Shown piece after piece: positions 23,981 through 28,380 of a stretch of DNA of 64,000 bases. The notes under the pieces were generated by a model. The model was not told where the DNA came from. It saw only the letters and a list, made by a program, of their open reading frames with translations, and ran no database searches. Source of the stretch: Microtetraspora fusca (GTDB lineage Bacteria; Actinomycetota; Actinomycetes; Streptosporangiales; Streptosporangiaceae); the NCBI RefSeq assembly GCF_001570365.1, contig NZ_BBYK01000038.1, forward strand, positions 480,787 through 544,786, read 5' to 3'. The position numbers were made by a program, and so were the translations under genes. Position 1 is the stretch's first letter. Each line of letters begins with the position of its first letter.

Positions 23981-24047
23981 CCGTCACAGGCGCGCCGGGC
24001 GCGTCCCACGACGCGCCCGGCCGTGGAACCGCACCGGCAAAAACCTG

Positions 24048-24076
24048 TTGGAGGCGAATCGCCGCCTTGTTACGGT
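24048..24076 (+). promoter_or_regulatory. Promoter of the Pro/Arg-rich small gene
   Basis: TTGGAG, 17 bases, TACGGT: a good housekeeping-type promoter, 68 bases after the acyl-CoA dehydrogenase stop. Transcription would begin near 24081-24084, giving a leader of about 200 bases. Confidence 0.6.
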
Positions 24077-24080
24077 CTCC

Positions 24081-24280
24081 GTGTGTGGATTTTTCTCCTG
24101 CGCGACCGCTGATCGTCTGATCGCTCGCGATCTCAGCCCGCTTCGCCGTCCGCCGCGCTCGACGCGGCGCCCCATGGAGACCTGTGCGCGCTCGGCGCGC
24201 CCCATGGCCCTGTCCTTCTGACGCGGCAGCTGAGTGCCGGCACTTCGTGCCGCGTTCCCGTTTGCCCAAGGAGATCTCAC
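24081..24280 (+). ncRNA. Long structured leader with possible upstream ORF
   Basis: Between the promoter and the small ORF lie several inverted repeats: GATCGC-tc-GCGATC inside a larger GCTGA...TCAGC stem, GCCGCG-ctcga-CGCGGC, and CGGCAC-ttc-GTGCCG just before the ribosome binding site. A GTG at the expected transcription start (24081) opens a 46-codon frame beginning MCGFFSCATADRL and ending at 24222. A second GTG at 24083 would give only nine codons. This is the layout of translation-dependent attenuation, but the fold is my own reading and is not verified. Confidence 0.4.
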
Positions 24281-24430
24281 ATGCGTACCCGTGCGACCAA
24301 GAAGCGTGGCGGGAAGACCCTCCCGCACGTCCCCCAGCCCCAGCGCAGCCTGCCGCCGCGCCAGATGCCGCTCCCGGCGCGTCCGGTCCGGCCCGCCCAG
24401 CAACCGCGCAGGCTGCCGCGACCCAAGTGA
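24281..24430 (+). CDS. 49-residue Pro/Arg-rich basic peptide, function unknown
   Basis: ATG with a strong AAGGAGAT ribosome binding site seven bases upstream. The 49-residue product starts MRTRATKKRGGK and continues as a chain of Pro-Arg and Pro-Gln units ending QQPRRLPRPK. It has no signal peptide, membrane segment, Cys or acidic residue. The composition is unlike its neighbours and recalls ribosome-binding peptides or proline-rich antimicrobial peptides; that is resemblance only. Promoter, long leader and a perfect terminator all frame this ORF, which argues that it is a real gene. I do not recognise the family. Confidence 0.55.
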   Translation: MRTRATKKRGGKTLPHVPQPQRSLPPRQMPLPARPVRPAQQPRRLPRPK

Positions 24431-24475
24431 CGCGATCCCGATAGGCAGGCGACCCGTTCGCCCCGTCCTCGACCA

Positions 24476-24505
24476 GAAAGGGCACTCCGGCCGGAGTGCC
24501 CTTTC
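24476..24505 (+). terminator. Terminator of the small Pro/Arg-rich gene
   Basis: A perfect 15-base-pair palindrome: GAAAGGGCACTCCGG followed at once by its complement ending CCCTTTC. It lies 45 bases past the small ORF. This is one of the strongest terminators in the window. Confidence 0.8.
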
Positions 24506-24720: not shown

Positions 24721-27700
24721 ATGCGCAGAATCGCGCATCAGCTGGCATCTCCCGTCAGAATCGGAGCGGCGGTCAGCGTGCTGGCCGCGGCCGTCCTGGC
24801 CGGGCTGCCGCACAGCGCGGAGGCCGCGGCGGACAGCGGCCTCGGTACGGTCACGTCCTTCACCAAGACCGGCGACGCCACGTACACGATCGAGACGGAG
24901 GGCGGGGCGAAGGTCAGGCTCGACTTCCTCAAGAACGACGAGTTCCGGATCTGGATGGCGCCGGACGGGAAGTTCACGGACCCGGCGGGCACTCCCCCTG
25001 CCGATCCGAAACAGCCGAACGCCACCATCGTGGTCAAGCAGGACTTCCCGGCGCCCCCGACGACGTCCAGGGAGACCGGCGACGGCTACGAGGTGGCCAC
25101 CGGCGACATCACCGTCCGAGTGGCCAAGTCCCCGGCGCTCTTCGAGGTGCGGCGGGCGGACGGCAGCCTCGTCTGGAAGGAGAGCAAGCCGCTCACCTGG
25201 AACGCGAACGGCACCACGCAGACCCTGGCCCGGGGCGCCGCCGAGCAGTTCTTCGGCGGCGGCATGCAGAACGGCCGCTTCTCGCACCGTGACCAGACGA
25301 TCAACGTGGGGGCCAACTACAACTGGGAGGACGGCGGCTACCCCAACTCCTCGCCGTTCTACCTGACCACGGCCGGGTACGGCGTGCTGCGCAACACCTT
25401 CACGGCCGGCACGTACTCCTTCGGCGAGCAGGTCACCGCGACGCAGAAGGAGCAGCGCTTCGACGCGTACTACTTCGTCTCACCGAAGCAGACCGACCTG
25501 TACACACCCATCGACCGCTACACCGAGCTGACCGGCCGTCCGTTCATGCCGCCGATCTACGGGCTGGAGATGGGCGACGCCGACTGCTACCTGCACAACG
25601 CCAACCGCGGCGAGCGCAAGCCCGAGGACGCGGTCAAGGTGGCGCAGGGGTACGTGGACCACGACATGCCTCGCGGCTGGATGCTGGTGAACGACGGCTA
25701 CGGCTGCGGCTACGACAAGCTGCCGTGGGTCGGCGACGAGCTGCGCGACCGGAACGTCCAGCTCGGCCTGTGGACCCAGTCGGCGCTGACCAACCAGGAG
25801 TACGAGGTCAAGGACGCCGGCGTGCGGGTGCGCAAGCTGGACGTGGCCTGGGTCGGCCCGGGCTACCGGCACGCGCTGACCGGTTGCGAGGACGCCTACC
25901 AGGGCATCGAGAAGAACTCCGACGCCCGCGGCTACGTGTGGATGGTCGAGGGCTGGGCCGGCGCGCAGCGCTGCGCGGTGCAGTGGACCGGCGACCACTC
26001 CGGATCGCTGGACTCCATTCGCTGGCAGGTTCCAGCGCTCGCCGGGTCCGGCATGTCGGGCATCGCGTACACCGCCGGCGACATCGACGGCATCTTCGGC
26101 GGCTCGGACGTCTCCTACGTGCGCGACCTGCAGTGGAAGGTCTTCACCCCGGCGCTGATGTCGATGTCCGGCTGGGCGGGCAAGGACAAGCAGCCGTGGG
26201 TGCGCGGCGAGCCGTACACCTCGATCAACCGTGCCTACCTGCGGCTGCGCGAGCGGCTGCTGCCGTACTTCTACACGTACGCGGCGCAGGCGCACCGGAC
26301 CGGGGCGCCGATCGCCCGCCCGCTGGTGCTGGAGTACCCCGAAGACGCCGACACGTGGGGCGATAAGGCCCGCTACCAGTTCCTGGCCGGGAAGGACTTC
26401 CTGGTGGCCCCCGTCTACACCGCCGGTGAGGTGCGCGACGGGATCTACCTGCCGAAGGGCACATGGGTGGACTACTGGACCGGGCGGACCTACGAGGGCC
26501 CGACCACGGTCAACGGGTACCACGCGCCGCTCGACCGGCTCCCGCTGTTCGTCCGCGGCGGTGCGATCGTGCCGATGTGGAAGGACGGGATCAACAACCA
26601 CGCCGACGTCAAGCCCGGCGACGCGATCACGCTCGACGTCTACCCGAAGGGGAACTCCATCTTCGAGCTGTACGAGGACGACGGCGTCACCCGGCAGTAC
26701 GCTGAAGGCCGCTCGGCCACCCAGACGTTCACCGTGACCGCTCCCGAGGAGGGGCGCGGCGAGGTGACCGTGGCGATCGGCGCGCTCACCGGCGAGTACG
26801 ACGGCAAGGCGGCCGCCCGGCCGTACGAGCTGGTCGTGCATGGGGAGAAGAAGCCGGGCAGCGTCCACGTGGGCGGAAAGCTCGCCCAGGAGGTCGGCAA
26901 GGACGCCTATGCCGCGGGCGCGATCGGCTGGTACCACGACGAGAACGGGGTGACCCGCGTCCGCACCGCGGCCGTGCCGACCGGCGAGGAGATCGCGGTC
27001 AAGCTCGCGGGCGCGTCGGCCGTGGGCGGGCGGCACCCGTCCGACACCGGCGTCACTGTCAGCGCGTCGGCGCCGCGAATGATCCTGCCGGGGCAGGAGG
27101 CCGAGGTGACGTTCACCGTGGCCAACGGTGCCGAGGTGCCGGTGAAGGACGTCGTGCTCTCCGTCGCGGTGCCCGAGGGATGGGCCGCGGTGGCCCCCTG
27201 GAAGGCGCGCAAGATCGAGCCCGGCACGACCGCTACCGCGAAGGTGCGGCTCGCCGTGCCCGAGAAGGCGGTGCCGGGGCCGGTCACGCTGACCGCGTCC
27301 GCCGCCTACACCGCCCGCGCGGACCGGCACGAGAGCACCGCGGCGTTCGCCACCGAGGTGCCGTACGGCTCGCTCGCGGCGGCGTTCGACAACGTCGGCA
27401 TCTCCGACGACGCGAACACGGGCGCGGGGAACCTCGACGGCGGCGGGTCGAGCTTCTCGGCGCAGAAGCTGGCCGCGATCGGGGTGACCCCGGGTTCGCG
27501 GCGGACCGTCGAGGGCGTGGAGTTCACCTGGCCGTCGTCGACCCCGGGCACTCCGGACAACGTGGTCGCCGCCGGGCAGACCATCGCGCTGTCGGGCAAG
27601 GGAAGCGGGCTCGCGTTCCTCGGCACCGAGGCGGGGAATGTCTCGCGCCCGGTGACAGTGGTCTACGCCGACGGCAGCACAGACAGCGGCACTCTCGGCT

Positions 27701-28380
27701 TCCCGAACTGGTGCTGCGCGGCGACCGACACGTTCGGCGCGAAGGTGGCCTTCTCCGTGAAGGGCAAGAACACCACGGCCGGTCCGAACCAGTATCCGAC
27801 CACGGATTACCGCATCTTCTTCAACTCGATCCGGATAAATCCAGATAAGGAGGTGATCGCGGTCAAGCTGCCGGACGCCGCGGCCATCCACATCTTCGCC
27901 ATGGCGCTCGGCGACAAGCCGCTGCCGCCAGCCCCCAAGGGCACGGTGTACGCCTCGGACCTCACTCCGCTGGAGTCCGTGAACGGCTGGGGCCCGGTGG
28001 AGAAGGACCGCTCGAACGGCGAGTCGGGCGCCGGCGACGGCCGGACCATCAGCCTGGCCGGGACCACGTACGCCAAGGGTCTGGGCGTGCACGCCTACTC
28101 CAAGGTGACCTACTACCTGGGCAAGGCCTGCACCCGCTTCACCTCGGTCATGGGTGTGGACGACGAGACCCGCGGCAACGGCTCGGTGACGTTCAAGGTC
28201 ATCGCCGACGGCACGGTCGTGCACACGTCGGGACGGCTCACCGGCACCACCCCGCCGGAGACGCTGGATGTGGACGTGACCGGGGCGAGGATCGTGGACC
28301 TGGAGGTCAACGACTCCGGCGACGGCAACGGCGCCGACCACGCCGACTGGGCCGACGCGAAGTTCGTCTGCGCGTCATGA
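24721..28380 (+). CDS. Secreted multidomain glycoside hydrolase family 31 enzyme
   Basis: A 1219-residue exported glycosidase. Signal peptide: residues 1-36, cut after an AEA type site. The GH31 catalytic barrel spans about 270-600. The likely nucleophile is Asp374 in KLDVAW and the acid/base Asp425 in WTGDHSGS, after the family signature EGWAGAQR. A proximal beta domain follows. Further on are a NEW3 domain (about 775-870, AEVTFTVANGAEVPVKDVVL), an extra beta domain (about 880-1070) and a C-terminal NPCBM sugar-binding domain (about 1075-1219, TYAKGLGVHAYSKVTYYL). Substrate is an alpha-linked sugar, exact type unknown. GGAG precedes the ATG. Confidence 0.85.
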   Translation: MRRIAHQLASPVRIGAAVSVLAAAVLAGLPHSAEAAADSGLGTVTSFTKTGDATYTIETEGGAKVRLDFLKNDEFRIWMAPDGKFTDPAGTPPADPKQPNATIVVKQDFPAPPTTSRETGDGYEVATGDITVRVAKSPALFEVRRADGSLVWKESKPLTWNANGTTQTLARGAAEQFFGGGMQNGRFSHRDQTINVGANYNWEDGGYPNSSPFYLTTAGYGVLRNTFTAGTYSFGEQVTATQKEQRFDAYYFVSPKQTDLYTPIDRYTELTGRPFMPPIYGLEMGDADCYLHNANRGERKPEDAVKVAQGYVDHDMPRGWMLVNDGYGCGYDKLPWVGDELRDRNVQLGLWTQSALTNQEYEVKDAGVRVRKLDVAWVGPGYRHALTGCEDAYQGIEKNSDARGYVWMVEGWAGAQRCAVQWTGDHSGSLDSIRWQVPALAGSGMSGIAYTAGDIDGIFGGSDVSYVRDLQWKVFTPALMSMSGWAGKDKQPWVRGEPYTSINRAYLRLRERLLPYFYTYAAQAHRTGAPIARPLVLEYPEDADTWGDKARYQFLAGKDFLVAPVYTAGEVRDGIYLPKGTWVDYWTGRTYEGPTTVNGYHAPLDRLPLFVRGGAIVPMWKDGINNHADVKPGDAITLDVYPKGNSIFELYEDDGVTRQYAEGRSATQTFTVTAPEEGRGEVTVAIGALTGEYDGKAAARPYELVVHGEKKPGSVHVGGKLAQEVGKDAYAAGAIGWYHDENGVTRVRTAAVPTGEEIAVKLAGASAVGGRHPSDTGVTVSASAPRMILPGQEAEVTFTVANGAEVPVKDVVLSVAVPEGWAAVAPWKARKIEPGTTATAKVRLAVPEKAVPGPVTLTASAAYTARADRHESTAAFATEVPYGSLAAAFDNVGISDDANTGAGNLDGGGSSFSAQKLAAIGVTPGSRRTVEGVEFTWPSSTPGTPDNVVAAGQTIALSGKGSGLAFLGTEAGNVSRPVTVVYADGSTDSGTLGFPNWCCAATDTFGAKVAFSVKGKNTTAGPNQYPTTDYRIFFNSIRINPDKEVIAVKLPDAAAIHIFAMALGDKPLPPAPKGTVYASDLTPLESVNGWGPVEKDRSNGESGAGDGRTISLAGTTYAKGLGVHAYSKVTYYLGKACTRFTSVMGVDDETRGNGSVTFKVIADGTVVHTSGRLTGTTPPETLDVDVTGARIVDLEVNDSGDGNGADHADWADAKFVCAS

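Follow-up and report, generated by a model that had tools for sequence, protein, structure and literature searches.

The stretch of Microtetraspora fusca DNA analysed here (the window; 64,000 nucleotides of a 9.0-Mb genome) contains a 49-codon open reading frame for a Pro/Arg-rich peptide, and the question it raises is whether so short a frame is a gene and, if it is, what switches it on and what its product does. A sequence-only reading had proposed a self-contained small gene, and comparison with related genomes agrees: the gene is conserved, with a promoter, a regulatory leader and a terminator of its own (Table 1), and is probably a single-gene antibiotic-response unit of the WhiB7 type, subject to translational attenuation by a leaderless upstream open reading frame (uORF). 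The -35 and -10 elements, the Shine-Dalgarno (SD) sequence and the frame, which encodes MRTRATKKRGGKTLPHVPQPQRSLPPRQMPLPARPVRPAQQPRRLPRPK without any D or E, are as that reading placed them, but the A/T-rich box that defines the promoter type had been overlooked. The terminator hairpin had also been recognized (-26.2 kcal/mol, z -5.5 versus shuffles, with only TTTC as T-tract), but with a stem of 15 base pairs instead of 13, because the sequence is a 30-nt perfect palindrome with a 4-nt loop; it is likely to be bidirectional in the ancestral convergent arrangement.

Table 1. Elements of the peptide locus in the window.
Feature	Position	Strand	Remarks
A/T-rich box AAAAAC	24039-24044	+	3 nt 5' of -35; WhiB7/WblC-type; published consensus GAAAWY
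-35 element TTGGAG	24048-24053	+	
-10 element TACGGT	24071-24076	+	17-nt spacer; predicted transcription start 24083
Putative leaderless uORF, GTG start, (M)WIFLLRDR*	24083-24112	+	also predicted anti-SD strand of helix P0
Hairpin region P1, directly 3' of uORF	24105-24137	+	contains P2 strand CTCAGC, 24132-24137
Extra G+C-rich stem-loops	24138-24205	+	in the alignment, present only in the two Microtetraspora leaders
Near-invariant GACGCGGCAGCTGAG	24220-24234	+	pairs upstream (P2) or with 24248-24255 (P3)
TGCCGCGT, 3' strand of hairpin P3	24248-24255	+	
3' strand of P0, SD to start codon	24266-24283	+	paired with uORF
SD sequence AAGGAG of peptide gene	24268-24273	+	
Pro/Arg-rich peptide gene	24281-24430	+	49 codons; stop included in coordinates
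Terminator hairpin GAAAGGGCACTCCGGCCGGAGTGCCCTTTC	24476-24505	+	13 bp and 4-nt loop

Judged by its conservation in the family and by purifying selection, the 49-codon frame is a real gene. A 39-row profile detects homologues in about 98 of the 338 genomes searched from the GTDB family, distributed over about 14 genera (Microtetraspora, Planotetraspora, Microbispora, Planomonospora, Planobispora, Streptosporangium, Nonomuraea and others); an earlier four-row profile gave about 55 members among 341 family genomes, and a few weak matches due to chance are counted in the raw tallies of the two profile searches, 69 and 100 genomes. The single sequence found a match in four genomes in a search of 60 relatives, and the single peptide found none in a scan of genome contigs. 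The count of about 98 is a lower bound because the profile missed a diverged 78-codon member with uORF MRIPSY* (genome G034, locus L196, approximately 1130-1430, thiolase on the minus strand), located by position alone. Beyond the family, a sample of 394 genomes of the class yielded weak matches only, and the four that were inspected as possible homologues (L161-L164) are chance matches in other frames or genes. Conservation of the frame in relatives, which the sequence-only reading had expected of a real gene, is also evident in the distribution of changes over codon positions 1, 2 and 3 (400, 298 and 701) and in a dN/dS of about 0.18 across 85 close pairs that are not independent of each other. 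The 92 collected sequences are 37 to 64 codons long. Searches against Pfam, NCBIfam, PHROG and PDB sequences gave no family match for the peptide, and no annotated protein or RNA family matches the locus.

In 17 of the 18 representative loci inspected, one particular thiolase gene faces the peptide gene tail to tail, and because nearly all of them share this convergent neighbour, the gene has been inherited vertically; an acyl-CoA dehydrogenase gene usually lies upstream. Most relatives have the peptide and thiolase genes directly adjacent, tail to tail, but the window has a large GH31-like gene (24721-28380) between them. A GH31-like gene also adjoins the thiolase gene in a genome without a peptide match (G002, locus L192). 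In another genome of the same genus without a peptide match (G001, locus L193), the dehydrogenase and thiolase genes abut, a clean loss. In one Streptosporangium-type genome (G328, locus L022), promoter, uORF, P1 and SD are kept but an apparent frameshift disrupts the peptide frame, either in a decaying copy or through a sequencing error. With matches to the leader pattern in non-actinobacteria and in Streptomyces silaceus, no peptide gene was found.

The promoter is the first indication of when the gene may be expressed. The WblC consensus of S. coelicolor consists of GAAAWY, 3 nt, TKGMNN, 16-19 nt and TANNNT, with the start 7-8 nt downstream (PMC7157823). All 92 leaders agree with the WhiB7/WblC type in box position, -35, spacer and -10, each having an A/T-rich box, 3 nt, a TTG -35, a spacer of 17 nt (18 leaders) or 18 nt (74 leaders), TANNNT, and then a start codon 6 nt (20 leaders) or 7 nt (72 leaders) downstream. 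The host genome of the window encodes a WhiB7-like protein ending in KRPRGRPRKTPVAA (WhiB tail RKRPRGRPRK), and the promoter of this whiB7 gene, GAAAAT-AGG-TTGCCG-N18-TAGGGT, has the layout of the autoregulated type in this one genome checked. The combined pattern AAAWY-N3-TTG-N20-22-TANNNT-N6-7-RTG matches the 9.0-Mb genome exactly once, at the peptide locus, so that no further leaderless genes with this pattern were found there; the reversed control pattern has zero matches. From these features, the promoter looks WhiB7-type and the peptide gene looks like a WhiB7 target, presumably bound by WhiB7 and dependent on it.

The uORF is predicted to be leaderless, since the predicted transcription start falls on its start codon. 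The sequence-only reading had placed a 46-codon leaderless frame at 24081-24221, which is not conserved; the conserved uORF starts 2 nt later, at 24083, exactly 7 nt beyond the -10, and in the window comprises nine codons and a stop (GTG TGG ATT TTT CTC CTG CGC GAC CGC TGA). Across the leaders it has 5-9 codons, with the variants MWINS*, MWIFS*, MWILYGDR*, MWILYRDR*, MWISHRDR*, MRLYL*, MRLYQ*, MRLYP*, MRFFL*, MRIYL* and MRIFPY*. The uORF retains its stop as TAA, TAG and TGA replace each other (12, 10 and 6 in the MWxS group; 23, 1 and 21 in the MR group), the Ile codon is ATT or ATC, the unpaired Ile of the MWxS group showing synonymous T/C changes and no others, and insertions and deletions of codons preserve the frame (MWIS, MWIFLLRDR, MRIFPY). 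Because start codons helped to locate the uORFs, conservation of the start is not independent evidence, and it is the frame, the stop swaps, the synonymous changes and the in-frame insertions and deletions that argue strongly for translation of the short uORF. A sequence-specific nascent-peptide sensor was considered for the E-peptide-like MRLYL and for the RxR of MWILYRDR and was rejected, these motifs being clade-specific and largely explained by pairing in helix P0.

When complete leaders are folded in silico, uORF and SD of the peptide gene form helix P0, a pairing that the sequence-only reading had missed and that includes the SD core in 82 of 85 leaders. Its register varies by clade: CCUUUAC:GUAAAGG with MRLYL, ACUCCU:AGGAGU with MWINS, CCUUAC:GUAAGG with MRIFPY, and AUGUGGA..:..UCCCACAU and neighbours with MWILYRDR. 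In Planotetraspora thailandica, AUGCG/CGCAU stands in place of the AUGUG/CACAU of its congeners, so that both sides are changed with the pair kept, and codon 2 of the uORF is changed from Trp to Arg. Two-sided changes occur in four of the 18 P0 pairs of the MRcore alignment. The duplex of uORF and SD has a mean energy of -15.7 kcal/mol with its own partner, versus -9.5 with shuffled uORFs and -8.9 with other 24-mers of the leader, and half the energy is lost when MR-type uORFs are combined with MW-type SDs (-7.7/-8.1 kcal/mol). When partners are permuted within clades, with relatedness not removed, own pairs remain better in the MR group (-19.6 versus -18.3; none of 5000 permutations as good) and the MWxS group (-16.7 versus -15.8; two of 5000); in the MWxDR group, to which the leader of the window belongs, own pairing is no better than permuted among 13 distinct pairs, probably because there is little variation in that group.

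The predicted cost of opening the region from SD to AUG in 85 distinct leaders falls from 9.7 kcal/mol (s.d. 1.6) in the native leader to 3.5 (s.d. 1.3) with the uORF occupied, versus 9.0 when 30 nt are blocked elsewhere and 4.6 with a shuffled uORF; in the leader of the window it falls from 10.6 to 3.9 kcal/mol. Mean pairing of the SD core decreases from 0.86 to 0.70 when the uORF is blocked; weak local partners remain, and therefore the predicted switch is graded and the release partial. In silico, then, the uORF itself is the anti-SD strand, which would mask the SD of the peptide gene when free and expose it when occupied.

The proposed sequence of events begins with WhiB7, which, induced upon translation inhibition, would activate the matching promoter. 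The resulting transcript would start with the leaderless uORF, for which the comparative evidence is strong. Free of ribosomes, the uORF RNA is predicted, from folding and comparison, to zip onto the SD and start region, and no peptide would be made. A drug that blocks early elongation would slow or stall a ribosome on the uORF, leaving P0 open and the SD free for synthesis of the peptide. The uORF peptide differs between clades, and the trigger is therefore more likely to be general stalling in early elongation than one nascent-peptide motif.

In the last and weakest step, the peptide would bind rRNA or the exit tunnel and protect or idle ribosomes during stress. It looks disordered, roughly one residue in four is proline (P 24%, R 19%, K 9%), and its net charge is about +12 (mean +12.5); this cationic Pro/Arg peptide probably binds ribosomes. 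That it does so through rRNA or the exit tunnel, with stressed ribosomes protected or idled as a result, is a tentative and somewhat doubtful suggestion, based on composition and regulation. The more specific idea that the cell makes a tunnel-occupying peptide when its ribosomes meet an antibiotic that binds the tunnel or PTC, either to compete with it for its site or to idle and shield the ribosome, with the leaderless uORF as both sensor and anti-SD, is unlikely. A precedent for the ribosome as target of the peptide is the synthetic PR20, which in the E. coli tunnel covers the erythromycin site and whose inhibition is relieved by erythromycin (PMC9120013). Alternatively, the peptide might be a structural or assembly factor that binds the ribosome or rRNA outside the tunnel, the head MRxR...K being like the tail of a ribosomal protein. 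The conserved core, a basic head and the tail RPxxxPRR[IL]Px(K/GKG)R with a Pro-rich linker between them that varies in length, is what such a factor might be expected to show, but the peptide matches no ribosomal-protein or other family.

Another alternative concerns the sensor. P0 might be a constitutive brake that is opened by any ribosome loading on the 5' AUG, for example if stress increases 70S initiation at leaderless starts, with no drug-stalled ribosome. This is rather unlikely: the sequences of the uORF peptide are indeed not conserved between clades, and most uORF letters are accounted for by P0, but neither the length held at 5-9 codons, nor the stop kept through swaps, nor the exclusively synonymous T/C changes at the unpaired Ile of the MWxS group are expected of a mere brake.

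The middle of the leader bears on whether attenuation, as proposed here, is translational. In most leaders, hairpin P1 lies directly 3' of the uORF, and in MW-type leaders seven or eight of its 12 base pairs show two-sided changes. The structured leader of the sequence-only reading is upheld by such comparison but not by the folding energy of the leader of the window alone, which is unremarkable (z -1.44); evidence for the predicted structures is from between-species comparison and not from the stability of a single sequence. The element GACGCGGCAGCTGAG can pair backwards (P2, CTCAGC...) or forwards (P3, GCCGCGTC), and these pairings are mutually exclusive; the element (24220-24255 region) is kept even in leaders that do not have the upstream CTCAGC partner.

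The mutual exclusion of P2 and P3, near-invariant in most leaders, would suit transcription attenuation as in whiB7/wblC, with P3 (GACGCGGC:GCCGCGTC) as terminator, P2 as antiterminator and translation of the uORF deciding between them, a logic also used by actinomycete ARE ABCF genes. The sequence-only reading had drawn this likeness to whiB7, and it holds for the promoter type but not for transcription attenuation, which is improbable here. There is no U-tract after P3, no intrinsic terminator was found between uORF and gene (the single match overlaps the -10 and the predicted start), and a ribosome on a uORF of 5-9 codons stops short of P2. Furthermore, the conserved middle module is gone from several Nonomuraea leaders, which at 66-90 nt retain promoter, uORF and P0; natural minimal leaders with only promoter, uORF, P0 and SD are those of L185, L180, L173 and L182, one of them 66 nt long. 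P0 is therefore the likely core of a translational attenuator, and P2/P3 an elaboration. Least probable of all is that the product is a secreted antimicrobial peptide or a small toxin that slows growth. Its cationic, Pro/Arg-rich composition might suggest this, but it has no signal or leader part and no immunity or export gene adjoins its gene, the neighbours being fatty-acid degradation genes.

With these features, the likely antibiotic-response regulon of antibiotic-producing actinomycetes would gain a conserved family of small proteins, and the peptide becomes a concrete candidate for a factor that protects or idles ribosomes. The attenuator, in which a leaderless mini-ORF would be the masking strand for a downstream SD, is compact, minimal and easily testable. 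As the sequence-only reading had supposed, the family appears to be undescribed: the open literature, with subscription papers mostly outside the scope of the search, yielded no mention of the peptide gene, its leader or the uORF peptides.

Several known systems share parts of this design. Members of the WhiB7/WblC regulon in S. coelicolor and mycobacteria have the same layout of box, -35 TKG, 16-19 nt spacer and TANNNT (PMC7157823), but no known member matches the peptide, and at the peptide locus the predicted start site is the start codon of the uORF. The antibiotic-related actinomycete genes whiB7/wblC, lmrC, are5sc and tiaA have very short uORFs, such as MLV for are5sc (PMC12421871). Their attenuators act on a premature terminator, whereas none is evident in the peptide leader. 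Oncocin, apidaecin and synthetic poly-PR are likewise cationic and Pro/Arg-rich, a likeness of composition only; in contrast to oncocin and apidaecin, with which it has no homology, the peptide is by its sequence neither secreted nor processed and would be made in the producer's own cytoplasm. In mycobacterial polycysteine attenuators, too, the regulated gene is preceded by a short leaderless uORF, but the uORF of the peptide gene has no cysteine run and differs in promoter and target. The erm-type attenuators (ermC and relatives) likewise have a short uORF and a main SD that is masked until a ribosome occupies the uORF. In ermC the SD is masked by leader strands that do not include the arrested codons, and an SD of its own serves the uORF, whereas the uORF described here is predicted to be leaderless and itself the anti-SD strand. 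Thus, uORF attenuation of antibiotic-response genes is already known, and the use of a leaderless uORF as anti-SD, together with the peptide family, appears to be new.
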